From the NCBI GenBank assembly GCA_021809525.1, contig JAKAYU010000010.1, positions 1 to 37,557 of the forward strand: DNA of 37,557 nt, written 5' to 3'. How positions within the stretch are numbered: position 1 is the first letter of the stretch; each line of letters begins with the position of its first letter. Position numbers and translations under genes: made by a program. Under the pieces are notes generated by a model that had not been told where the DNA came from, did no database searches, and saw only the letters and a program-made list of their open reading frames with translations. This document shows, one piece after another, positions 1,661 to 14,765 of this stretch. Origin of the DNA: Pseudomonadota bacterium (GTDB lineage Bacteria > Pseudomonadota > Gammaproteobacteria > Steroidobacterales > Steroidobacteraceae).

Positions 1661-2342
1661 ATGGGAAAAGAACTCCGCGCGTAGAGAATATACGGTACGG
1701 TCTCCGCGCTCGCATTCCTCGTCCTGGCCATATCGGCATTCCCGATCGCTCGACATAGAAACGTATTCGGTACGATCGACGTTCAACGCATCAACGTGGT
1801 GGAGCCCAACGGTACGCTGCGCATGGTCATTTCCGACCAGGCGCGCTTCCCTGGGGCCATCGTCCAGGGCAAACGGTACCCGTTCTACCGGCACACGGCG
1901 GGGATGCTCTTCTACAACAGTGAAGGCTCAGAGCATGGCGGGCTGATCTTTGGCGGGCGAAAGCATGCCAACGGCACCGTGTCGAGCGACGGACACCGCA
2001 GCTTCGATGGGTACGATCAGGATCAGACCTTCAGCCTCGAGGACGCCCAAGGCGCAACTGGGTAAACGACCCGCCTCGCATTCCTTGACGCACCGAAGTG
2101 ACCCATCACCGATCCATTCAAACTGCCGCGTAGTCAGTGGCAGCATTTTCTCAAGACGCATCCCGCCTTCAAGGCGCGCTTGACGATGGAGAGAGCTGCG
2201 GACGGCGGTGTTTTCCTCGCACTGGAGGACAAACAGGGTCGCACACGGCTCGCGCTCAAGGTCGACTCACACGGCAACTCCGTGATTCAGCTGCTCGGTG
2301 CAAACGGAAAAGTCGTTGCCCAGCTGCCGCGCCGGCGGAAAG
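1661..2342 (+). pseudogene. Decayed membrane-anchored hypothetical protein with three in-frame stops
   Basis: One reading frame carries protein-like sequence throughout, interrupted by TAG at 1682-1684, TAA at 2063-2065 and TGA at 2099-2101. It starts with ATG 1661 behind a purine-rich stretch. A hydrophobic anchor follows (TVSALAFLVLAISAFPIA), then FGTIDVQRINVVEPNGTLRM and a block rich in Gly, His and Tyr around HTAGMLFYNSEGSEHGG. After the second and third stops the same frame resumes with SQWQHFLKTHPAFKARL and then DKQGRTRLALKVD and ANGKVVAQLPRR. The coherent frame on both sides of the stops shows this was one gene of about 225 residues. I recall similar intact hypothetical proteins but know no function. 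There is no stop at the expected end; the frame runs on to 2521 through unrelated sequence. No frameshift is needed to explain the remnant, so decay looks recent. Confidence 0.75.
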
Positions 2343-2517
2343 AAGCACATTCGCACGGCGTGTGCGGCACGGTGTGCGCCCCGGGCCAGACCGCGCCTGC
2401 GGCGCATCGCGCCGCCTCAGCCGCACCTGTCGCCTTTTGCCGTCAGTACTGGCGTTCGGACGCGCGATCGCGCTACGGTCTGCCAGAGGAGCCCGTCGGA
2501 TCGCCCAAGGTGGTCTC

Positions 2518-4092
2518 ATGAACCGAATGGTCTTGCCCGGCAGCGAGCGGGACCCGCTGCCGCAGGCGCGAGTGCTGCGAGCTGCCGCTGCCGATGAGCG
2601 GCTCGAAGTCACCCTCATCCTGCGCCCGAGCGCCCCGCAGCGCTGGCGCGAGCGCCTCGAGCGGCTCGGCCGGCTTGAGCGGCCCGCCCCCCTGACTCGC
2701 GAGCAGTTCGCCGAACTGCACGGGGCGAGCGATGCGGATCTGCGCGAGGTCGCGGCCTTTGCGGCCGCACACGGCCTGGCGGTCGTGCAGCAGCACGCTG
2801 CGCGCCGCACGGTCGTGCTCGCCGGCACGGTGGCCCAGATGAATGCGGCCTTCGGCGTGCAACTGTTCTGGTTCGAGCATCCGGACCTCACCTATCGCGG
2901 CGCGCGCGGCGCGGTGCAATTACCCGCGGCGCTGCTCGACATCGTGATCGCGGTGCTCGGTCTGGACAATCGGCCGCAGGCCCGTCCGCACCTGCGCATC
3001 CGCACCGCTCCGGCGCCCCGCCGCTCCCAGGCGTTGCCATCGCTGGCCGCCTCGTTCACCGCCGTCGAGCTGGCGGCGCTGTACGGTTTCCCGAGCGGCT
3101 CGGGCCAGGGCCAATGCATCGCGCTCATCGAGCTCGGCGGCGGCTACCGTCCGCGCGATCTGCGCACGTACTTCGATGGCCTCGGGCTGCCGATGCCCGA
3201 GGTCGCTGCGGTGTCGGTGGATCATGCCGCCAACGCCCCGACGGGCAATCCCAACAGCGCCGATGGCGAGGTGATGCTCGACATCGAAGTGGCGGGCGCA
3301 GTGGCCCCCGGGGCGACCCTTGTCGTGTACTTCGCCCCCAACACCGACGCCGGCTTCCTCGATGCCGTCACCACCGCCGTGCACGACACACAGTACCGGC
3401 CGACCGTCATATCGATCAGCTGGGGCGGACCGGAATCGACTTGGTCGGCACAGGCGCTGCGCGCGATGGACCAGGCGTTCGCCGCGGCCGCGGCGCTCGG
3501 TGTGACGATCTGTGTGGCCGCGGGCGACTCCGGCTCGACGGACGGGATCGCCGGCGCCAACCATGTGGACTTCCCGGCGTCGAGTCCGCACGCTCTTGCC
3601 TGCGGGGGAACGCGCCTGAAGGCCACGGCGAGCGCCATCATCAGCGAGACCGTCTGGAATGACGGGACTCCCGCGAACGGCGCTACGGGCGGCGGGGTCA
3701 GTACCTTCTTCCCACTGCCCGTCTGGCAGCAAGGCTTGCGTACCGTCGATGTACAAGGCCAGAGTCACGCGCTCATGCACCGCGGTGTACCCGATGTGGC
3801 CGCGGACGCCGATCCGCGCTCCGGTTATCAAGTCCTCGTGGATGGCGCCGCTGCGGTGTTCGGGGGGACGAGCGCCGTGGCGCCGCTGTGGGCCGGGCTG
3901 ATCGCTCGCATCAACGCCGCCGACGGTACGCTCGCCGGGCTGATCAGTCCGCTGCTCTACGCGCATCCCTCGGCGCTGCGCGACATTACCCGAGGCAACA
4001 ACGGCGGATTCCGCGCCACCCGCGGCTGGGATGCCTGCACGGGCCTCGGCACTCCGGACGGGACCCGCCTCGCTGTGCTGCCGGGCTTGTGA
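2518..4092 (+). CDS. S53 family peptidase (sedolisin/kumamolisin-like), pro-form
   Basis: A 524-residue serine-carboxyl peptidase, normally active at acidic pH. Residues 1-165 look like the Pro-kumamolisin activation domain. The catalytic domain starts near residue 178. Glu251 and Asp255 lie in DGEVMLDIEVAG, the oxyanion Asp337 in CVAAGDSGS, and the nucleophile Ser452 in GGTSAVAPLWAGL. The Glu-to-Asp(oxyanion) spacing of 86 equals that of kumamolisin. The C-terminal calcium site is visible as DITRGNNGG followed by GWDACTGLG. I chose ATG 2518; the frame stays open upstream to 2137, but that part overlaps the previous remnant and shows no family resemblance. There is no clear N-terminal signal peptide, so the export route is unclear. 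It is convergent with the phzF-like gene, 14 bases away. Family assignment is firm; substrate is unknown. Confidence 0.93.
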   Translation: MNRMVLPGSERDPLPQARVLRAAAADERLEVTLILRPSAPQRWRERLERLGRLERPAPLTREQFAELHGASDADLREVAAFAAAHGLAVVQQHAARRTVVLAGTVAQMNAAFGVQLFWFEHPDLTYRGARGAVQLPAALLDIVIAVLGLDNRPQARPHLRIRTAPAPRRSQALPSLAASFTAVELAALYGFPSGSGQGQCIALIELGGGYRPRDLRTYFDGLGLPMPEVAAVSVDHAANAPTGNPNSADGEVMLDIEVAGAVAPGATLVVYFAPNTDAGFLDAVTTAVHDTQYRPTVISISWGGPESTWSAQALRAMDQAFAAAAALGVTICVAAGDSGSTDGIAGANHVDFPASSPHALACGGTRLKATASAIISETVWNDGTPANGATGGGVSTFFPLPVWQQGLRTVDVQGQSHALMHRGVPDVAADADPRSGYQVLVDGAAAVFGGTSAVAPLWAGLIARINAADGTLAGLISPLLYAHPSALRDITRGNNGGFRATRGWDACTGLGTPDGTRLAVLPGL

Positions 4093-5639: not shown

Positions 5640-7781
5640 TCAGCCGGGCAGCCGCGAGAGGTCCGCGACCCCCGCGAACAGTGCGCGCATCTCGCGCAGC
5701 AGCGCCAGGCGGTTGCCGCGCAGCTGCGGATCCTCATCCATGACCATCACCTCCTCGAAGAACGCATCGACCGCCTGCCTGAGGCCGGCGAGTTCCGTCA
5801 GCGCGCCCGCGTAGTCGCCGCGCGCGATGGCGGATGTCACCGTGGCACTGAGCGGGCGCAGCGCATCGAACAGCCGCTGCTCGGCCGGCAGGCGCAGCAG
5901 TGCGGGATCGACCGCCGCCGTCGGCACCTGCCCGGCCTTCTTCAGGATGTTGGCCACACGCTTGTTCGCCGCCGTCAGGCTCACCGCCTCCGGCAGCGCC
6001 AGGAACGCCCCGAGCGCGGCGAGCCGCGCGTCGAGCTCCAGCGGCGAGCGCGGCCGCGTCGAGAGCACCGCCTCGAACATCTCCGGGGTGACGGGGCGGG
6101 CATTGCCGGGTGCGCGCGGCTCGCCTTCCAGGTAGTACGCGCGCAGCCGTTCGAACACGTAGTCGTACAGTTCGTCGGCCGACTGGGGTGTCGCGGGCAC
6201 CGGCTTGCCGGCGGCGAGCGCGATGCGGTCGATGTCCGCGCGCGCCAGACGCGCCGCCTGCTCCAACACCGCGGCGAGGTCCACCTTCAGGCGCTTCTCG
6301 AGCAGGATACGGGTGAGGCCGATGGCCGCGCGCCGCAGCCCGAACGGGTCCTTGGTGCCGGAGGGCCTCTCGCCGATCGCGAAGATCCCGGCGAGGGTGT
6401 CAAGCTTGTCGGCGATCGCCAGCAGCGTGCCGGTGCCGGTGAACGGCAGCGCATCGCCTGCGGCGCGCGGCAGGTACTGCTCGCCGAGCGCGGCTGCGAC
6501 TTCGCGGTCCTCGCCGTCCGCGGCGGCGTAGTGCGCGCCCATGATGCCTTGCAGCTCCGGGAACTCCCCGACCATGGCGGTGAGCAAATCGCACTTGCAG
6601 AGCAGCGCGGCCCGCTCGAGCAGCGCGGTCGGCTCACCGAGCGCGGTGGCCATCTGCACGGCGAGCGCGCGAATGCGCCGGGTTCGATCGCCGAGCGTGC
6701 CGAGTCTGGCCTGGAACGTCACGCCGTCGAGCGCCTCGATCCGTTGGGCGAGCGGGATCTTGCGGTCCTGATCCCAGAAAAACGCTGCATCGGCGAGGCG
6801 CGGCCGCACCACGCGCTCGTTGCCCCCGATCACCTTCGCCGGCTCGCGGCTCTCGATGTTGGCGACCGCGACGAAACACGGCAGGAGCGCGCCGTCGGCG
6901 CCCTCGAGCGGGAAGTACCGCTGGTGATCCTGCAGCGTCGAGATCAGCACCTCGCGCGGCAGATCGAGGAAGCGTGCTTCGAAGCGCCCCGTGAGCGGCA
7001 CCGGCCATTCCACCAGCGCGGTCACCTCATCGAGCAGCGCCTCGCTGAGCAGCGCCCGGCCGCCGAGCGCGGCGGCCGCCGTGCTGACCCCTGCGCGGAT
7101 GCGCTCGCGCCGCGCGGCGAAGTCCGCCACGACATGGCCGCGCTCCCCGAGGATGCGCTCATACGCGCCGGGGCTCGTGAGCCGCAGCGGTTTCGGCGCA
7201 TGAAAGCGGTGGCCCCAGGTCAGATTGCCGGCCGGTGTCTCGAGCAGCGTCGTCGGCACGACGTCCCGGCCGTACAGCATCACGAGCCAGTGCACGGGGC
7301 GCACGAACTGCGCCTCGCTCGCGCCCCAGCGCATGCGGCGCGCAATGGGCAGCGCATCGAGCGCGCTCTGCACGATGCCGGGCAGGAGCTCGACGGTGGC
7401 CGCACCGGCCTTCACGCCGGTGTAGTAGAGGAACTCCCCTTTGGCATCCTTGCGCCGCTCGAGCGACTCGATGCTCGCGGCGCAGCTCGCCGCGAACGCC
7501 TGTGCGGCGCGCGTCGGCGCGCCGCCGGCATCGAATGCCGCGCCGAGCGGCGGACCGCGGCGCTCCAGGCGCTGCTCGGGCTGGCGCGCCGCGAGCCGTC
7601 TGACCCGAACCGCCAGTCGCCGCGGTGTGGCGAAGGACTCGAGTGCGCCGTGCGCCAGCGCCGCCTTCGCTAGAGCGGACTCGATGCCGGCCGCGAACGC
7701 CAGCTCCAGTTGCCGCAGCGTCTTCGGCGGCAGCTCCTCGGTGCCGATCTCCACCAGGAAGTCGCGCTTCTCCATGCTCAT
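5640..7781 (-). CDS. glyS: Glycine--tRNA ligase beta subunit
   Basis: A 713-residue beta subunit of the bacterial alpha2beta2-type glycyl-tRNA synthetase, acting in the cytoplasm with GlyQ to charge tRNA-Gly. The N-terminus [20 protein letters not shown] is characteristic of GlyS, as are [31 protein letters not shown] and DPFGLRRAA. The C-terminal part forms the DALR-type anticodon-binding region. I chose ATG 7781 because it overlaps the glyQ stop as ATGA, implying translational coupling and balanced subunits. ATG 7775 is a possible alternative two codons later. Length is close to the usual 690 or so residues. Confidence 0.97.
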
Positions 7782-8695
7782 GCTCCCACCGCTGTGCTCT
7801 GCAGCATGGGAAAGCCAAGCGCCTGTCGTGTTTCGAAGTATGCGCGGGCCACCGCGCTCGCCAGCGTGCGCATGCGCAGGATGTAGCGCTGCCGCTCCGT
7901 GACCGAAATGGCGCGCCGGGCATCGAGCAGATTGAAGGTGTGGGAGGCCTTGAGCACCTGCTCGTATGCCGGCAGCGGCAGTCCGTCGGCGAGCAGCCCC
8001 TGACAAGCGCGCTCGTGATCCTCGAAATGCCGCAGCAGCGTCGGCACGTCGGCCCGCTCGAAGTTGTACCGGGACTGCTCGACCTCGTTCTGGTGGAACA
8101 CGTCCCCGTAAGTGACCCGGCCGCGCGCACCGTCGGTCCACACGATGTCATACAGGCTCTCCACGCCCTGCAGATACATCGCCAGGCGCTCCAGCCCATA
8201 GGTGATCTCGCCGGTGACCGGCCGGCAGTCGAGCCCGCCGACCTGTTGGAAGTAGGTGAACTGGGTAATCTCCATGCCGTTCAGCCAGACTTCCCAGCCG
8301 AGTCCCCATGCGCCGAGACTCGGGGATTCCCAGTTGTCCTCCACGAAGCGCACGTCGTGCACCAGCGGATCGAGTCCGAGCGCGCGCAGGCTCCCCAGAT
8401 ACTGCTCGATCAGATCGGGCGGGGAGGGTTTGATGATGACCTGGAACTGATAGTAGTGCTGCAGCCGGAAGGGGTTCTCCCCGTAGCGCCCGTCGGTCGG
8501 ACGGCGCGAAGGCTGGGCGTAGGCGGCGCTCCAGGGCTCCGGGCCGATCGAGCGCAGGAAGGTGGCCGTATGAAAGGTGCCCGCGCCGACCTCCATGTCG
8601 TAGGGCTGCAGGACGATGCAGCCGCGCTCGGACCAGTAGCGCTGCAGCGCGAAGATGAGCTCCTGGAAGGTGCGGGGCGCGGGCGGGATTTTCAT
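7778..8695 (-). CDS. glyQ: Glycine--tRNA ligase alpha subunit
   Basis: A 305-residue alpha subunit carrying the class II catalytic core that activates glycine with ATP. Typical blocks are [18 protein letters not shown] near the N-terminus, [12 protein letters not shown], and the run from [20 protein letters not shown] to [18 protein letters not shown]. The length is normal. Its stop overlaps the glyS start (ATGA). It is the first gene of the glyQ-glyS-plsC-phzF-like run. The leader is short and I saw no T-box or other riboswitch in front of it. A TATACT hexamer at 8726-8731 (minus strand) could be its -10 box, but no good -35 accompanies it. It is divergent from glnA. Confidence 0.97.
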
Positions 8696-8819
8696 GACGA
8701 TGCCGAGTGAGCAAAACAGCCGCCGAGTATAGCGAAGCCCCGCCGGGCGGGAACGGCGCACCAAAACAGGGCCGTGCCCGGTCGAGCCGAGGATGGCCGG
8801 GCCAAACGGGCGCATCGTC

Positions 8820-8835
8820 TGCACTGTTTTAGTGC
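8820..8835 (+). promoter_or_regulatory. Probable NtrC binding site (distal)
   Basis: GCAC and GTGC half-sites separated by seven bases (TGCACTGTTTTAGTGC), matching the dyad core of NtrC sites. Its centre is 31 bases from the second site and roughly 115 bases upstream of the expected glnA start point. The upstream placement suits an enhancer acting on the sigma-54 promoter at 8918. Confidence 0.72.
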
Positions 8836-8851
8836 TATCATCCGGCTGCGC

Positions 8852-8866
8852 GCCCTTTTTTAGTGC
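8852..8866 (+). promoter_or_regulatory. Probable NtrC binding site (proximal)
   Basis: GCCC and GTGC half-sites with a seven-base T-rich spacer: one mismatch from the GCAC-N7-GTGC core. It lies 31 bases, about three helical turns, from the distal site, so two NtrC dimers would bind on the same face of the DNA. Confidence 0.6.
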
Positions 8867-8917
8867 AATTTCGCGTGAAGTCGCGGCTAACCGATTGATC
8901 TGCAAAGGGCGTCGGCC

Positions 8918-8933
8918 TGGCACGCCGCCTGCA
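8918..8933 (+). promoter_or_regulatory. Sigma-54 (RpoN) promoter of glnA
   Basis: TGGCACGCCGCCTGCA matches the -24/-12 consensus TGGCACG-N4-TTGCA except for one base. The invariant GG and GC are exactly ten bases apart. It lies about 140 bases upstream of the glnA ATG and downstream of the two NtrC-type sites, the classical arrangement for nitrogen-limited glnA expression. Confidence 0.82.
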
Positions 8934-9072
8934 CTATCCGACTGCTCCGCCACGCGACTCACCAGCGGATGAACGTCGAGCGACCGGCAGGCCCTTCGGG
9001 ATCGACCCGATGTGGCGGCAGCTCGGGCTGTCCCGATGAGGCGGGCGCTACCCCTTTTCCTCCGGAGGCGAT

Positions 9073-10482
9073 ATGACACCGAGCGATGTACTGAAGTTGA
9101 TCAAAGAGAAAGACGTCAAGTTCGCGGACCTCAGGTTCACCGACACCCGGGGCAAGGAGCAGCATGTCACCATTCCGGCGCGGCTGGTCGATGAGGACCT
9201 GTTCCGCGATGGCAAGATGTTCGACGGCTCCTCCATCGCCGGCTGGAAGGGCATCAACGAGTCGGACATGATTCTCATGCCCGAGGCCAACACCGCGGTG
9301 CTCGACCCGTTCTTCGAGGAGACCACCGTCAATCTGCGCTGCGACGTCATCGAGCCGGCCACCATGCAGGGCTACGAGCGCGACCCGCGCTCGCTCGCCA
9401 AGCGCGCCGAGGCGTATCTGAAGTCGACCGGCATCGCCGATCAGGCGACCTTCGGGCCCGAGAACGAGTTTTTCATTTTCGACAGCGTGCGCTTCGGCAA
9501 CGAGATGCGCGGCGCCTTCTACGCCATCGACTCCGTGCAGGGTGCGTGGAGCTCCGGCACCGAGTTCGCCGAAGGCAACACCGGGCACCGCCCGGGAGTC
9601 AAGGGCGGGTACTTCCCGGTGCCGCCGGTCGACGCCTACCAGGACATCCGCTCGGCGATGTGTCTGGCCTGCGAGGAGCTCGGACTGAAGGTGGAAGTGC
9701 ACCACCACGAGGTGGCCACCGGCGGACAGGGCGAAATCGGCATCGGCGCCGGCACCCTGGTGCAGAAGGCCGATCAGGTGCAGCTGTTGAAATACGCCGT
9801 GCTGAACGTCGCGCAGCGCTACGGCAAGACCGCGACCTTCATGCCCAAACCGCTGGTCGGCGACAACGGCAGCGGCATGCACGTGCATCAGTCGCTGCAG
9901 AAGGACGGCAAGGCGCTGTTCGCCGGCGACAAGTACGGCGGGCTCTCGGAGCTCGCGCTGTATTACATCGGCGGCATCATCAAGCACGCCAAGGCGCTCA
10001 ACGCCTTCACGAACGCCGGCACCAACAGCTACAAGCGCCTCGTGCCGGGCTTCGAGGCGCCGGTGATGCTCGCCTACTCGGCGCGCAACCGCTCCGCCTC
10101 GATCCGCATCCCCTGGGTCTCCAGCCCCAAGGCTCGCCGCATCGAGGTGCGCTTCCCGGACTCGACCGCCAACCCGTACTTCGCGTTCACGGCGATGATG
10201 CTGGCCGGGCTCGACGGTATCCAGAACAAGATCCACCCGGGTGATCCGGCCGACAAGGACCTCTACGATCTCGAGCCCGAGGAGGCCCAGCACATTCCCA
10301 CCGTGTGCCACTCCCTGGACATGGCCCTCGAGCACCTCGACAAGGACCGGGAGTTCCTGACGCGCGGCGGAGTGTTCAGCAACGACGTGATCGATGCCTA
10401 CATCAAGCTGAAGATGCAGGAAGTCACCCGCTTCCGCATGGCCACGCATCCGGTGGAGCTGGAGCTGTACTACAGCTGCTGA
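9073..10482 (+). CDS. glnA: Glutamine synthetase, type I (GS-I beta)
   Basis: A 469-residue dodecameric enzyme joining ammonia to glutamate using ATP. Seen: the N-terminal beta-grasp domain with [17 protein letters not shown] and [12 protein letters not shown], the catalytic block around [21 protein letters not shown] (substrate and metal site) and [13 protein letters not shown]. Tyr398 in [12 protein letters not shown] matches the adenylylated tyrosine of the enterobacterial enzyme (Tyr397), so activity is probably also controlled by GlnE. ATG 9073 follows a strong GGAGG. Expression is predicted to depend on sigma-54 and NtrC (sites at 8820-8933). ntrB and ntrC follow downstream after a DUF4124 gene. 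Confidence 0.98.
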
Positions 10483-10500
10483 GCACCCGTGAGCGCGCCG

Positions 10501-10557
10501 CTGTCTTGCCGCGCCGAGGCCGCTCCCGTGACGGGAGTGTGCCCCGGCGCGGGACAG
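10501..10557 (+). terminator. Nested inverted repeat after glnA (terminator or attenuator candidate)
   Basis: Three nested complementary blocks: CTGTC 10501-10505 with GACAG 10553-10557, CCGCGCC 10509-10515 with GGCGCGG 10546-10552, and CTCCCG 10523-10528 with CGGGAG 10532-10537 around a TGA loop. The structure starts 18 bases after the glnA stop. No U-tract follows directly, so it may stabilise the glnA mRNA end or partly uncouple glnA from the downstream genes rather than act as a classical terminator. Confidence 0.5.
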
Positions 10558-10636
10558 AGTCTCACCAGCGTCGCCGCCGGGCGACACTCGGGCGCGCTTT
10601 TGTGCTCGGCGCGCCAAGGCGATATGCTCGCTGTCC

Positions 10637-11209
10637 ATGAGCGCCTCCCGCTGGATCCTTCGGACGGCCATGGCCGCAGTGCTGTGCGCGGGGCTGTCCG
10701 CCGCAGTCTGGGCCGGCAATGGCGACGGTGCCACGGTGTACAAATGGGTCGACGCCCATGGCGTCATCCACTACAGCGACCGGCCGCACCCGAACGCCAC
10801 GAAGCTGACCATCCAGGGCGCACAGGCCTATGCGCCGCCGCCTCCGCTTCCGTCCGACCTCAGCGCCGCGCCGCCGCCGGCTGCTGCGCGGCCCGCGCGC
10901 GCCTACAACAGCTGCCGCATCGCCCAGCCGCGCAATCAGCAGATGCTGATGAACGTGCATCACGCCACCGCCATCGTGCGCACCGACCCACCCCTGTTGC
11001 CGGGCAACCGCATCCAGCTGTTCGTCGACGGGCGGCGCATGCCGGGCGAGGGGCCGGCGTTCACGTTTCCGGTCTACCGCGGTCAGCACTCGGTTTCGGC
11101 GGTGGTGGTCAACGGCTTCGGGCAGATCCTCTGCGAGACCTCGACGGTGACGTTCTACGTGCACCAGCCGTCGATCCAGAATCCGCACAACCCCGTTCAT
11201 CCGCACTGA
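10637..11209 (+). CDS. DUF4124 domain-containing envelope protein
   Basis: A 190-residue protein with a signal peptide (residues 1-26, ending AVWA), so it is probably periplasmic or membrane-associated. Directly after it lies the DUF4124 motif YKWVDAHGVIHYSDRP. A Pro/Ala-rich linker (about 60-88) leads to a second domain (about 90-180) with two cysteines and a beta-rich, immunoglobulin-like look. The molecular function of DUF4124 is unknown. Its position between glnA and ntrB recurs, as far as I recall, in several gammaproteobacterial lineages. Start ATG 10637 is set by the signal peptide. It could be co-transcribed with ntrBC, which begins 45 bases further on. Confidence 0.85.
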   Translation: MSASRWILRTAMAAVLCAGLSAAVWAGNGDGATVYKWVDAHGVIHYSDRPHPNATKLTIQGAQAYAPPPPLPSDLSAAPPPAAARPARAYNSCRIAQPRNQQMLMNVHHATAIVRTDPPLLPGNRIQLFVDGRRMPGEGPAFTFPVYRGQHSVSAVVVNGFGQILCETSTVTFYVHQPSIQNPHNPVHPH

Positions 11210-11254
11210 TCCGCCGCGCCCCGCGCCGGTCCGGCCGGCAGCCCGGAGCGTTCC

Positions 11255-12349
11255 GTGGCCGTTGAGCACGGTTCGCCCTCGGCGCTCGCGCACTTCGATC
11301 CGGCCGGCCTGTTCGATGCGCTCTCGACCGGTATCATCGTCCTCGATGCGCAGCTGTGCGCGATCTACGCGAACGTGGCCGCGCAGGATCTGCTCGCCTT
11401 CAGCCTGAACCAGGCGCGCGGCCGGCCGTTCACCGACTTCCTGTACGACAGCAACGGACTGCGCGCGCTGCTCACGCGAGCGCTCGCCACCGGCGAGGGC
11501 ATTGCCGACCGCGAGTTCACCGTGCGGCCGGCCGCCGCGCCGCGCGAGCCGCGCACGCTCGATGTCACCATCACGCAGCTCGAACAACAGATCACCGGCA
11601 CCCACCTGCTGCTCGAGCTCGCCGATGCCACGCAGCGCCAGCGCATCACCCGCGAGAATGACCTGCTCGCCCGCCTCGAGGGCAGCCGCATGATGATTCG
11701 TCAGCTCGCCCACGAGATCAAAAATCCACTCGGCGGGCTGCGCGGCGCGGCGCAGCTGCTCGAGCGCGAGCTGCCGCAAGCGCAGCTGCGCGAGTACACG
11801 CAGGTGATCATCGGCGAGGCGGACCGGCTGGCCACGCTCGTCGATTCGATTGCAGGGCCCGCGCGGGCGCCGGAGAAATCGCTGCTCAACGTGCACGAGA
11901 TCTGCGAACACGTGTACCGACTGCTGCGCGCCGAAGCCACCGCCGATGTGCTCATCGAGCGCGACTACGACCCGAGCCTGCCGTCCGGGACACTCGACCG
12001 TCATCAGCTCATCCAGGCCCTGCTCAACGTCGCGCGCAATGCCCTGCAGGCGCTCGGTGGCCGCGGGCGCATCGTGCTGCGCACGCGTGCGCTGTCCAAC
12101 GTACACATCGGCTCCGTCCGCCACCGGCTCGCCGCGAGCGTGCAGGTGCAGGACGACGGCCCCGGCGTGCCGCCGCAGCTGCACACGAGCCTGTTTTATC
12201 CGCTGGTGACCGGCCGCCCCGACGGCACGGGCCTGGGGCTTGCCGTCGCGCAGGAACTCGTGAGCCGCAACGGCGGCCTGATCGAATTCGACAGCGAGCC
12301 GGGCCGCACGGTGTTCACGCTGTTGCTGCCGCTCGGAGAAGACGCATGA
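11255..12349 (+). CDS. glnL (ntrB): Nitrogen regulation sensor histidine kinase NtrB
   Basis: A 364-residue soluble sensor kinase/phosphatase that sets NtrC phosphorylation under control of PII. The N-terminal PAS-like domain covers about residues 15-125. The phosphoacceptor His153 lies in RQLAHEIKNPLGG. The HATPase domain has the N box (NVARNALQAL), G1 (DDGPGVP) and G2 (GTGLGLAV). There is no membrane segment, as expected for NtrB. I used GTG 11255, which gives normal length; no better ATG precedes the PAS domain. The stop overlaps the ntrC start as ATGA, indicating coupled translation. Confidence 0.95.
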   Translation: MAVEHGSPSALAHFDPAGLFDALSTGIIVLDAQLCAIYANVAAQDLLAFSLNQARGRPFTDFLYDSNGLRALLTRALATGEGIADREFTVRPAAAPREPRTLDVTITQLEQQITGTHLLLELADATQRQRITRENDLLARLEGSRMMIRQLAHEIKNPLGGLRGAAQLLERELPQAQLREYTQVIIGEADRLATLVDSIAGPARAPEKSLLNVHEICEHVYRLLRAEATADVLIERDYDPSLPSGTLDRHQLIQALLNVARNALQALGGRGRIVLRTRALSNVHIGSVRHRLAASVQVQDDGPGVPPQLHTSLFYPLVTGRPDGTGLGLAVAQELVSRNGGLIEFDSEPGRTVFTLLLPLGEDA

Positions 12350-13779
12350 ACGAGGCGCTGCGCGTATGGGTGATCGACGACGATGCCTCGATCCGCTGGG
12401 TGCTCGAGCGCGCGCTGCGCAACGCCGGGCTCGTGGCGCGCGCTTTCGACTCCGCCGAGCCGGCGCTCGAAGCGCTGCGCCGCGATGCGCCCGACGTGCT
12501 GATGACCGACATCCGCATGCCGGGCCGCTCCGGGCTCGATCTGCTGCGGCGCCTGCGCGAGACCCGGCCGCTGCTGCCGGTCATCGTCATGACTGCCCAT
12601 TCCGATCTCGGCAGCGCAGTGTCCGCCTACCAGAGCGGCGCCTTCGAGTATCTGCCCAAGCCCTTCGACATCGATCAGGCCGTGGCGCTGGTGCGGCGCG
12701 CGGCGCGTGTGCAGCCGCCGGCGGCCGCGGACGGCGCCGCCGAGGCGCGTATTCCGGAGCTGCTCGGCACGGCGCCGGCCATGCAACAGGTGTTCCGCGG
12801 CATCGGCCGGCTGTCGCGCTCGAGCGTGACGGTGTTGATCACCGGGGAGTCCGGCACCGGCAAGGAACTCGTGGCGCGCGCGCTGCACGAGCACAGTCCG
12901 CGCACGGGACGCCCGTTCATCGCGCTCAACACCGCAGCGATTCCGGGCGATCTGCTCGAGTCGGAGCTGTTCGGCCACGAGCGCGGCGCATTCACCGGCG
13001 CGGAGGCGCAGCGGCGCGGACGGTTCGAGCAGGCCGATGGCGGCACGCTGTTCCTCGATGAGATCGGCGACATGTCGCTGCCGCTGCAGACACGCCTGCT
13101 GCGGGTGCTGGCCGAAGGGGAGTTCTACCGTGTCGGCGGTCAGACGGCGATCCGCGTGGACGTGCGCGTCATCGCCGCCACGCACCAGAACCTTCACGAA
13201 CGGGTGGCGCAGGGGCTGTTCCGCGAGGACCTGTATCACCGTCTGAACGTCATCCGCCTGGCGCTGCCGCCGCTGCGCGAGCGGGCCGAGGACGTTCCGC
13301 TGCTGCTGCGGCATTATCTGCGCACGGCGGCGCGTGACCTCGGCGTCGAGCCGAAAACGCTCGCCCCCGAGGCCGAGCGCCGCCTCGCCGCGTACCGCTG
13401 GCCGGGCAACGTGCGAGAGCTGGTCAACGTCTGCCGCCGGCTGTCGGTGCTTGCCCCGGGCCGCGAGATCGGGTCCGAAGATCTGCCGGCGGAAATCGGC
13501 GCAGGCGGCGCGGCCGAGGCGACCGCTGACTGGCAGAGCGCGCTCGCGGACTGGGCCGCGCGTCAGGCCGCAAGCGGCGAGGGCGCCCTGCTCGATCTGG
13601 CGCTGCCGCAGTTCGAGCGGATCCTGATCCGCGCGGCGCTGAAGCGCACGCAGGGCCACCGCCAGGAAGCCGCGCGGCTGCTGGGTTGGGGGCGCAACAC
13701 CCTGACACGCAAGCTGAAGGAGCTGGCGCTCGCGATTCCCGAATCCGGCGCGGATGCGCCCGAGGCGAGCGGATCGTAG
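12346..13779 (+). CDS. glnG (ntrC): Nitrogen regulation response regulator NtrC
   Basis: A 477-residue sigma-54 activator. The receiver domain (1-120) has Asp55 in VLMTDIRMPG as phosphorylation site, with the acidic pocket DDD at 11-13. The central AAA+ domain has the Walker A GESGTGKE (167-174) and the sigma-54 contact loop GAFTGA (214-219), then GGTLFLDEIGDM as Walker B. A Fis-type helix-turn-helix closes the protein (KRTQGHRQEAARLLGWGRNT). It should bind the GCAC-N7-GTGC dyads upstream of glnA. It is convergent with pyrD. Confidence 0.97.
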   Translation: MNEALRVWVIDDDASIRWVLERALRNAGLVARAFDSAEPALEALRRDAPDVLMTDIRMPGRSGLDLLRRLRETRPLLPVIVMTAHSDLGSAVSAYQSGAFEYLPKPFDIDQAVALVRRAARVQPPAAADGAAEARIPELLGTAPAMQQVFRGIGRLSRSSVTVLITGESGTGKELVARALHEHSPRTGRPFIALNTAAIPGDLLESELFGHERGAFTGAEAQRRGRFEQADGGTLFLDEIGDMSLPLQTRLLRVLAEGEFYRVGGQTAIRVDVRVIAATHQNLHERVAQGLFREDLYHRLNVIRLALPPLRERAEDVPLLLRHYLRTAARDLGVEPKTLAPEAERRLAAYRWPGNVRELVNVCRRLSVLAPGREIGSEDLPAEIGAGGAAEATADWQSALADWAARQAASGEGALLDLALPQFERILIRAALKRTQGHRQEAARLLGWGRNTLTRKLKELALAIPESGADAPEASGS

Positions 13780-13817
13780 CGCCGCTGCGCCCCGTGTGGC
13801 CCGGCGGGCCTGGCGCC

Positions 13818-14765
13818 TCAGACGTGCAGCGTACCGGTGAGTTCCCCGACGTTCGCGAAGCCATGCTCGTGCAGGTACGCGGCGATGCCCGCGTTGATCC
13901 GTTTGCACACCATCGGGTCGTAGAACAGCGCCGTGCCGACGCCGATCGCACTCGCCCCGGCAATGAGAAACTCGATCGCGTCGGTGGCTGTCGTGATGCC
14001 GCCCTGGCCGATGATCGGGATGCCGTGCCTGCGCGCCACGTCGTAGACCTGGTGCACCTTCAGCAGCGCGATGGGCTTGATCGCAGGTCCCGAGAGCCCC
14101 CCCTGGATGTTGCCGATCACCGGGCGGCGGGTGCGCGCGTCGATGGCCATGCCCATCATCGTGTTGATCACCGCCAGCGCGTCCGTCCCCGCCTCGATAC
14201 AGCGACGGGCGTTCTCGCGGATGTCGGTCTGATTGGGCGAGAGCTTGGTGATGAGCGGCTTGCCGGTCACGCGCCGGCATGCCTCGACCACCTGCGCGGA
14301 CATGTCCGGATAATTGCCGAAGGCGACCCCGCCCTCCTTGACGTTCGGGCAGGAGATGTTGATTTCGATCGCATCGATCGGCGACTGATCGAACAGGCGC
14401 GTAACTTCAGCGTACTCCTCGACCGTCGAGCCCGACACGTTCGCGATGAAGCGCGTCTCGGTGAAATCCAGCTGCGGCAGGATCCGCGCGATGACCTGCT
14501 CGGCGCCCGGGTTCTGCAGGCCGATCGCGTTCAGCATGCCCGCGGGGGTCTCGCACACCCGGTGCGCCGGATTGCCGAGCCGCGGGGCGAGCGTGGTGCC
14601 CTTGAGCACCACCGCGCCAGCGTCGCGATTGGAAAAGCCCTCGATGCGGGTGTACTCCTCGCCGAAGCCTACGCACCCGGACAGCAGCACGATGGGCGAG
14701 GCGAAATGCAGGCCGCAGAATTTCAGTTTCAGCGCGTCGGACGGACCAGTCGATGTCTGGGTCAT
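13818..14765 (-). CDS. pyrD: Dihydroorotate dehydrogenase, class 1B type
   Basis: A 315-residue FMN TIM-barrel enzyme oxidising dihydroorotate to orotate in pyrimidine synthesis. Cys139 in EINISCPNVKEGG is the active-site base of class 1 enzymes. Other class 1B marks are SPIVLLSGCVGFGEEY near the N-terminus, the lysines in VVLKGTT and LITKLSPN, and GIPIIGQGGI in the FMN-phosphate region. Class 1B enzymes normally pair with PyrK, an FAD/2Fe-2S subunit usually encoded next door; none is seen here. Most gammaproteobacteria use the membrane class 2 enzyme, so this is a notable choice. Related dihydropyrimidine dehydrogenase-like enzymes are a weaker alternative. Confidence 0.88.
   Translation of the reverse strand: MTQTSTGPSDALKLKFCGLHFASPIVLLSGCVGFGEEYTRIEGFSNRDAGAVVLKGTTLAPRLGNPAHRVCETPAGMLNAIGLQNPGAEQVIARILPQLDFTETRFIANVSGSTVEEYAEVTRLFDQSPIDAIEINISCPNVKEGGVAFGNYPDMSAQVVEACRRVTGKPLITKLSPNQTDIRENARRCIEAGTDALAVINTMMGMAIDARTRRPVIGNIQGGLSGPAIKPIALLKVHQVYDVARRHGIPIIGQGGITTATDAIEFLIAGASAIGVGTALFYDPMVCKRINAGIAAYLHEHGFANVGELTGTLHV

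Follow-up and report, generated by a model that had tools for sequence, protein, structure and literature searches.

As read from its sequence, glnA of a gammaproteobacterial genome is almost certainly transcribed from an NtrC-activated, putatively IHF-bent σ54 promoter, whose start is predicted at about position 8944 of the window, the whole stretch of 37,557 nucleotides analyzed here. In kind it is ordinary, one more instance of textbook NtrC/σ54 control; comparison with relatives brings out an IHF-type site as well as a possible p1 (basal σ70) promoter and a possible brake site for NtrC itself. Of the elements found, the brake site is the only one that may be new, which is not proven.

An ordered NtrC and σ54 module in front of glnA

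Two dyads of the form GCAC-N7-GTGC lie upstream of glnA, 31 bp apart from start to start (Table 1); dyad I is the sole exact copy in the window, dyad II has one mismatch. They are followed by TGGCACGCCGCCTGCA, in which the GG-N10-GC spacing is exact and a single C for T separates the element from the σ54 consensus TGGCAC-N5-TTGCW; departures from consensus in this genome are one base each in dyad II and the −12 box. The original prediction, made from the letters alone, had described the dyads, their distance, and the −24/−12 element in these terms and had proposed control of glnA by NtrC and σ54. Both the description and the proposal are borne out: the genome has the regulator, the sensor, and the sigma factor as well as the sites, whose order and spacing are conserved. 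That the module was “complete” does not stand, as an IHF-type site and other conserved elements had been missed; judged by sequence, the IHF-type site corrects this word, yet it is not new in kind.

Chance matches in GC-rich DNA would be the simplest objection, and single sites are indeed no commoner than in shuffled sequence. Dyads with at most one mismatch occur 60 times in the window against a shuffle mean of 50.2 (sd 7.15), with 10 of 100 shuffles reaching 60, and a loose σ54 pattern gives 15 matches against a shuffle mean of 16.2, thus without enrichment. Both kinds of match being at chance level, it is only the ordered set that carries weight. This set was defined as a dyad pair of at least 15/16, 28–34 bp apart, followed 56–75 bp on by a σ54 element of at least 7/8; with these thresholds, which were set at the observed values, it occurs once in the window and not at all in 150 windows simulated with matching dinucleotide composition, in which dyad pairs alone have a mean of 0.047 per window. 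Because of this, and because order and spacing are conserved among relatives, chance is rejected as the origin of the set as a whole; we leave it next to no probability. Across the genome, exact dyads number 229 (coding and noncoding unsorted) versus 77 with a reversed-pattern control, a count from which no regulon is claimed; the tandem pattern occurs at six places versus none in the control. Four further 7/8 dyads, at 10965 (after glnA) and at 11598, 11937, and 12225 (in ntrB), are at chance level for the window and were set aside as candidates for a glnLp promoter.

The proteins that would act on these sites are encoded in the same genome (3.57 Mb, 325 contigs, 94.21% complete). ntrB and ntrC lie in the glnA locus itself, the circuit having been described as closed within 5 kb and the divergent glyQ start as 125 bases from the distal dyad; both distances hold. 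NtrC comprises a receiver, an AAA+ domain with GAFTGA, and a Fis-type helix-turn-helix; aligned with its E. coli counterpart it has 296 identities over 484 alignment columns and retains the DIRMPG and GAFTGA stretches as well as the recognition region. The latter, 26 residues (TQGHKQ...LKEL), differs by a single K/R change, so that the protein should read the same dyad as E. coli NtrC does. rpoN has one match in the genome, above cut-off, ihfA and ihfB are both present, and there is one P-II gene, called glnK by inference. In the window, glyS also scores above its NCBIfam cut-off, and a gene for a Pro-kumamolisin/subtilase-type peptidase occupies 2137–4092. Scanned against Rfam with gathering scores, the window matched no family, and a tRNA search found none. 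An open reading frame of 35 codons (8969–9076), which overlaps the glnA start as ATGA, was rejected as a leader peptide, its ATG being lost, by eye, in the relatives L085, L089, and L090.

From these parts we infer the following course. Under nitrogen limitation NtrB would phosphorylate NtrC, and NtrC~P would bind dyads I and II, whose centres lie about 116 and 85 bp upstream of the predicted start and which would then serve as an enhancer. IHF would bend the DNA between enhancer and promoter, and the looped NtrC would open σ54 polymerase at the −24/−12 element, with glnA transcribed from the predicted start. ntrB and ntrC, farther along the same strand, would bring feedback if they are cotranscribed with glnA.

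Table 1. Genes and sequence elements of the glnA locus (positions in the window; n/8, matches to the eight fixed bases of the dyad)
Feature	Sequence	Positions	Strand	Remarks
glyQ		7778–8695	−	divergent neighbour of glnA; NCBIfam cut-off passed
−10-like box of glyQ	TATACT	8726–8731	−	present in 29/29 loci holding glyQ
Dyad 0	GCACCAAAACAGGGC (7/8)	8758–8772	+	candidate for a weak, distal NtrC site; lies between the glyQ promoter and dyad I
Dyad I	GCACTGTTTTAGTGC (8/8)	8821–8835	+	NtrC enhancer site by sequence; kept in relatives
Extended −10-like box	TGC-TATCAT	8833–8841	+	possible basal σ70 promoter; touches dyad I
Dyad II	GCCCTTTTTTAGTGC (7/8)	8852–8866	+	NtrC enhancer site by sequence; kept in relatives
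IHF-type site	TAACCGATTGATC	8888–8900	+	one mismatch to YAANNNNTTGATW; between enhancer and promoter; conserved place
−24/−12 element	TGGCACGCCGCCTGCA	8918–8933	+	σ54 motif match; rpoN in genome
Dyad III	GCACTATCCGACTGC (7/8)	8931–8945	+	candidate NtrC brake site over the −12 box and the predicted start
glnA		9073–10482	+	type I glutamine synthetase; NF007006 and TIGR00653 above cut-off
DUF4124 ORF		10637–11209	+	between glnA and ntrB
ntrB (glnL)		11255–12349	+	NR(II); passes NCBIfam cut-off
ntrC (glnG)		12346–13779	+	NR(I); passes NCBIfam cut-off

Conservation of the promoter plan in the genus

The comparison covers the best 30 same-genus loci minus L109, in which the 5′ end of glnA is missing; the remaining 29 were aligned on the T of the −24 box. 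They come from 37 same-genus genomes (own included), seven of which have no locus among the best 30; L005 was removed as a duplicate of L110. Fifteen loci form clade A, to which the window belongs and which is one group on the glnA tree (support 94/98), and 14 form clade B; six outer loci complete the set.

Conservation of the dyads among relatives had been proposed as a check, and it turned out in favor of the prediction: dyad I is kept with at least 7/8 in 27 of the 29 loci, dyad II in 28, and both in 26, where their distance is 31 bp in 16 cases, 32 in eight, 30 in one, and 33 in one. TGGCA and TGCA of the σ54 element are invariant (29/29), which is partly by construction as the element was chosen by a joint score with the dyads and then served as the anchor. 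Within at most 400 bp before glnA (less where a contig ends), 71 of 80 public loci have one or more dyads of at least 7/8 and nine have none. Mean pairwise identity in the flanks of the IHF-type site, at −16 to −2 and −50 to −31, is 0.30–0.32 in both clades, hence the conserved blocks there do not just reflect shared ancestry; clade A is less random at −94 to −86 (identity 0.45), +17 to +23 (0.52), and +40 to +60 (0.45). The distance between the −24 T and the glnA start is 52–183 bp in 27 loci but 310 bp in L093 and 374 bp in L094; these two keep the inner promoter plan except that dyad II of L094 falls below 7/8, and in L092 and L095, their closest relatives, the promoter module is 144 bp from glnA.

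The sequence AATCAA-N4-TTG is given in PMC3224663. The consensus of IHF is WATCAANNNNTTR, of which YAANNNNTTGATW is the reverse complement, and it is YAANNNNTTGATW that relatives carry between dyad II and the −24 box. A match with at most one mismatch is found in 27 of the 29 same-genus loci, namely 15/15 of clade A and 12/14 of clade B (the other two have two mismatches), and in 4/6 outer loci. Thirty of the 32 such matches in the interval −240 to +30 sit at −30/−29; the other orientation gives one match and shuffles of the interval 0.0024 per locus. Among 72 distant loci, searched in either orientation, the match is irregular, the best one having at most one mismatch in 20 and at least three in 22, so that the IHF-type site is not general.

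The extended −10-like box that touches dyad I may belong to a basal promoter. It matches TATAAT in at least four of six positions in 17 of the 29 loci and is absent from the other 12; at the same place after dyad II such a box occurs in 0/29. A σ70 consensus scan of 8600–14000 found no promoter, and it is therefore conservation that speaks for the box. The candidate σ70 start, at about 8848, would fall between dyads I and II, where bound NtrC would block it; the box resembles glnAp1 of E. coli, which NtrC represses (PMC3870243).

Further upstream, dyad 0 is found with at least 7/8 at −163 to −157 from the −24 T, a range picked after viewing the data, in 13 of the 29 loci (shuffles, 0.007 per locus), and the half-site GCAC[CT]A at this place in 18 (shuffles, 0.005). 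Dyad 0 is asymmetric, and its 15-mer recurs unchanged as the distal dyad in one of the P-II gene promoters (L157). The dyads might also serve the divergent gene, an effect that the original prediction had mentioned as a possibility, with NtrC at dyad 0 or I altering expression of glyQS; we consider this improbable. glyQ does lie upstream in 25 of the 29 loci (on the minus strand in those with a strand listed) and likewise in a number of other Gammaproteobacteria, and dyad 0, or its half-site, is 25–27 bp from the glyQ −10 box in eleven clade-A loci, the window included. L091, where it keeps 26 bp to the box and has lost its place relative to glnA (−117), points to glyQ as well. However, glyQ has its own −10-like box, no σ54 element in the intergenic region faces it, and in five clade-B loci (L100, L102, L104, L110, and L112) the half-site is tied to glnA, as it keeps its offset to the glnA promoter while its distance to the glyQ box varies between 37 and 113 bp. 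The letters after TATACT of glyQ (CGCGCGCT, TTTTG) recur in many loci, too.

A candidate site across the −12 box and the start

Dyad III has at least 7/8 in all 15 clade-A loci, being 8/8 in 12 and 7/8 in three, the window among the latter; in clade B it is 7/8 in two of 14 loci and lower in 12, and in the six outer loci it does not exceed 6/8. The corresponding place in P-II gene promoters of the genus has at most 6/8 in all 29 (two reach this value). The genome holds 21 other strict σ54-like sites, of which 18 were examined (C43, C46, and C192 were left out), and 17 of these have less than 7/8 at the place; the remaining one, which lacks an upstream dyad, has 7/8. As clade A is a single group on the tree and one change suffices, the simplest story from these sequences would be one gain of dyad III in clade A, after which it decayed in three loci: the window, the sister L084 of the window, and L088.

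The bold reading makes dyad III a brake built into the promoter: once NtrC~P is abundant, the protein would cover the −12 box and the start, block σ54 polymerase, and so cap glnA expression, much as governor sites do at E. coli glnAp2, though from a place on the promoter itself. This would add to NtrC/σ54 activation, the best explanation of the promoter, and not replace it. Besides its constancy in one well-supported group and its rarity at the same place of other σ54-like promoters, the pattern of conservation within the dyad argues for this, the centre columns +18 to +23 being variable (0.20–1.08 bits) and TGC at +25 to +27 invariant; in L094 the DNA changes directly after the dyad, which is still 8/8. 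But the GCA of the dyad comes from the −12 box, so only five bases are free, its centre is not random (the T at +17 is invariant, and identity is raised as given above), and its 3′ half has decayed in the window and L084 (CTGC, TTGC). The scarcity of the dyad in clade B, and its occurrence at a σ54-like site without upstream dyad, also speak against a brake, which we regard as possible rather than probable.

Conservation runs on to +33, and the clade-A block from −12 to +33 may instead be an initially transcribed or leader signal acting in start choice, promoter escape, or RNA stability, and no NtrC site at all. Columns +28, +30, +31, and +33 are constant in 14 or 15 of the 15 loci, CTCCGC recurs, by eye, in several clade-B loci without dyad III, and clade-A identity is raised in the dyad centre and again at +40 to +60. 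Against such a signal stand L094, where the downstream part is lost and dyad III exact, and the empty Rfam scan; L093 has an exact dyad III and keeps TCCG after it. A start or leader signal is quite conceivable, if short of probable, and at least as likely as the brake. What the brake would imply for clade A is put forward tentatively, and we doubt it more than we believe it: its glnA promoter would have gained an NtrC site within the −12 box and start, one protein serving as activator and brake and the same sequence as −12 element and operator half-site. In the literature searched, with subscription papers largely outside, no NtrC site across a glnA −12 box is named; absence from print is not claimed.

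Comparison with P-II gene promoters and other species

A natural contrast to glnA is offered by the promoters of the P-II gene in these genomes. Of 37 genomes searched 36 had a match; 30 loci were scanned (L130, L139–L167), and L166, at a contig edge and without a σ54 element with dyad, was dropped, which leaves 29. In the own genome the P-II gene stands behind a σ54 element and two 7/8 dyads 32 bp apart, and promoters across the genus resemble that of glnA in having dyads, mostly two at about 32 bp, and a σ54 element. In contrast to glnA, where they are mostly 8/8, the enhancer dyads are mostly 7/8, which suggests that the P-II gene may need more NtrC~P than glnA does. The IHF-type match is weaker (at most one mismatch in 5/29, at most two in 13/29) and often at −28, and no promoter of the 29 has a 7/8 dyad at +13, where glnA of clade A has dyad III. 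In some P-II gene promoters there is, near −48, a third dyad, together with an IHF-like match around −28. Elsewhere, L119 (G000:C112:1143-1958) has an exact dyad 68 bp upstream of a σ54-like element, and L115/L128 (G000:C85:13061) a σ54-like element with a 7/8 dyad at +13 and without upstream dyads.

A close known counterpart, of the same plan, is glnA of E. coli K-12, used here as a control: it has a pair of NtrC dyads, both exact and spaced 32 bp, along with a σ54 element, and shares the gene order glnA-ntrB-ntrC. The enhancer is nearer in the window, dyad I being at −97 from the −24 T as opposed to −121 in E. coli, where 121 bp separate the beginning of the first dyad from the σ54 element. 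Moreover, 701 bp of the E. coli locus contain no IHF match with at most one mismatch, and the divergent neighbour is bipA instead of glyQ. IHF between activator sites and the σ54 element is a feature of E. coli glnHp2 and of nif promoters, which differ from the window in belonging to other genes and, for nif, in using a different activator, NifA. The governor sites of E. coli glnA lie between enhancer and promoter, whereas the candidate brake site of the window overlaps the −12 box and the start. NtrC activates glnAp2 and has extra governor sites of low affinity there (PMC3870243). For glnA of Xylella fastidiosa, primer extension mapped a σ54 start that disappears in an rpoN mutant, and a putative IHF site is reported together with two putative NtrC sites (PMC3224663). 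The leader there is 35 nt, compared with about 129 nt in the window, and the accessible part of that report mentions nothing comparable to dyad III, that is, no site spanning the start (PMC3224663).

The analysis confirms textbook nitrogen control in this gammaproteobacterial genus, and the comparative set supplies testable detail in the form of an IHF-type site whose offset hardly varies and a dyad, specific to one clade, that spans the start; the latter, if it is a true NtrC site, would make glnA self-limiting.
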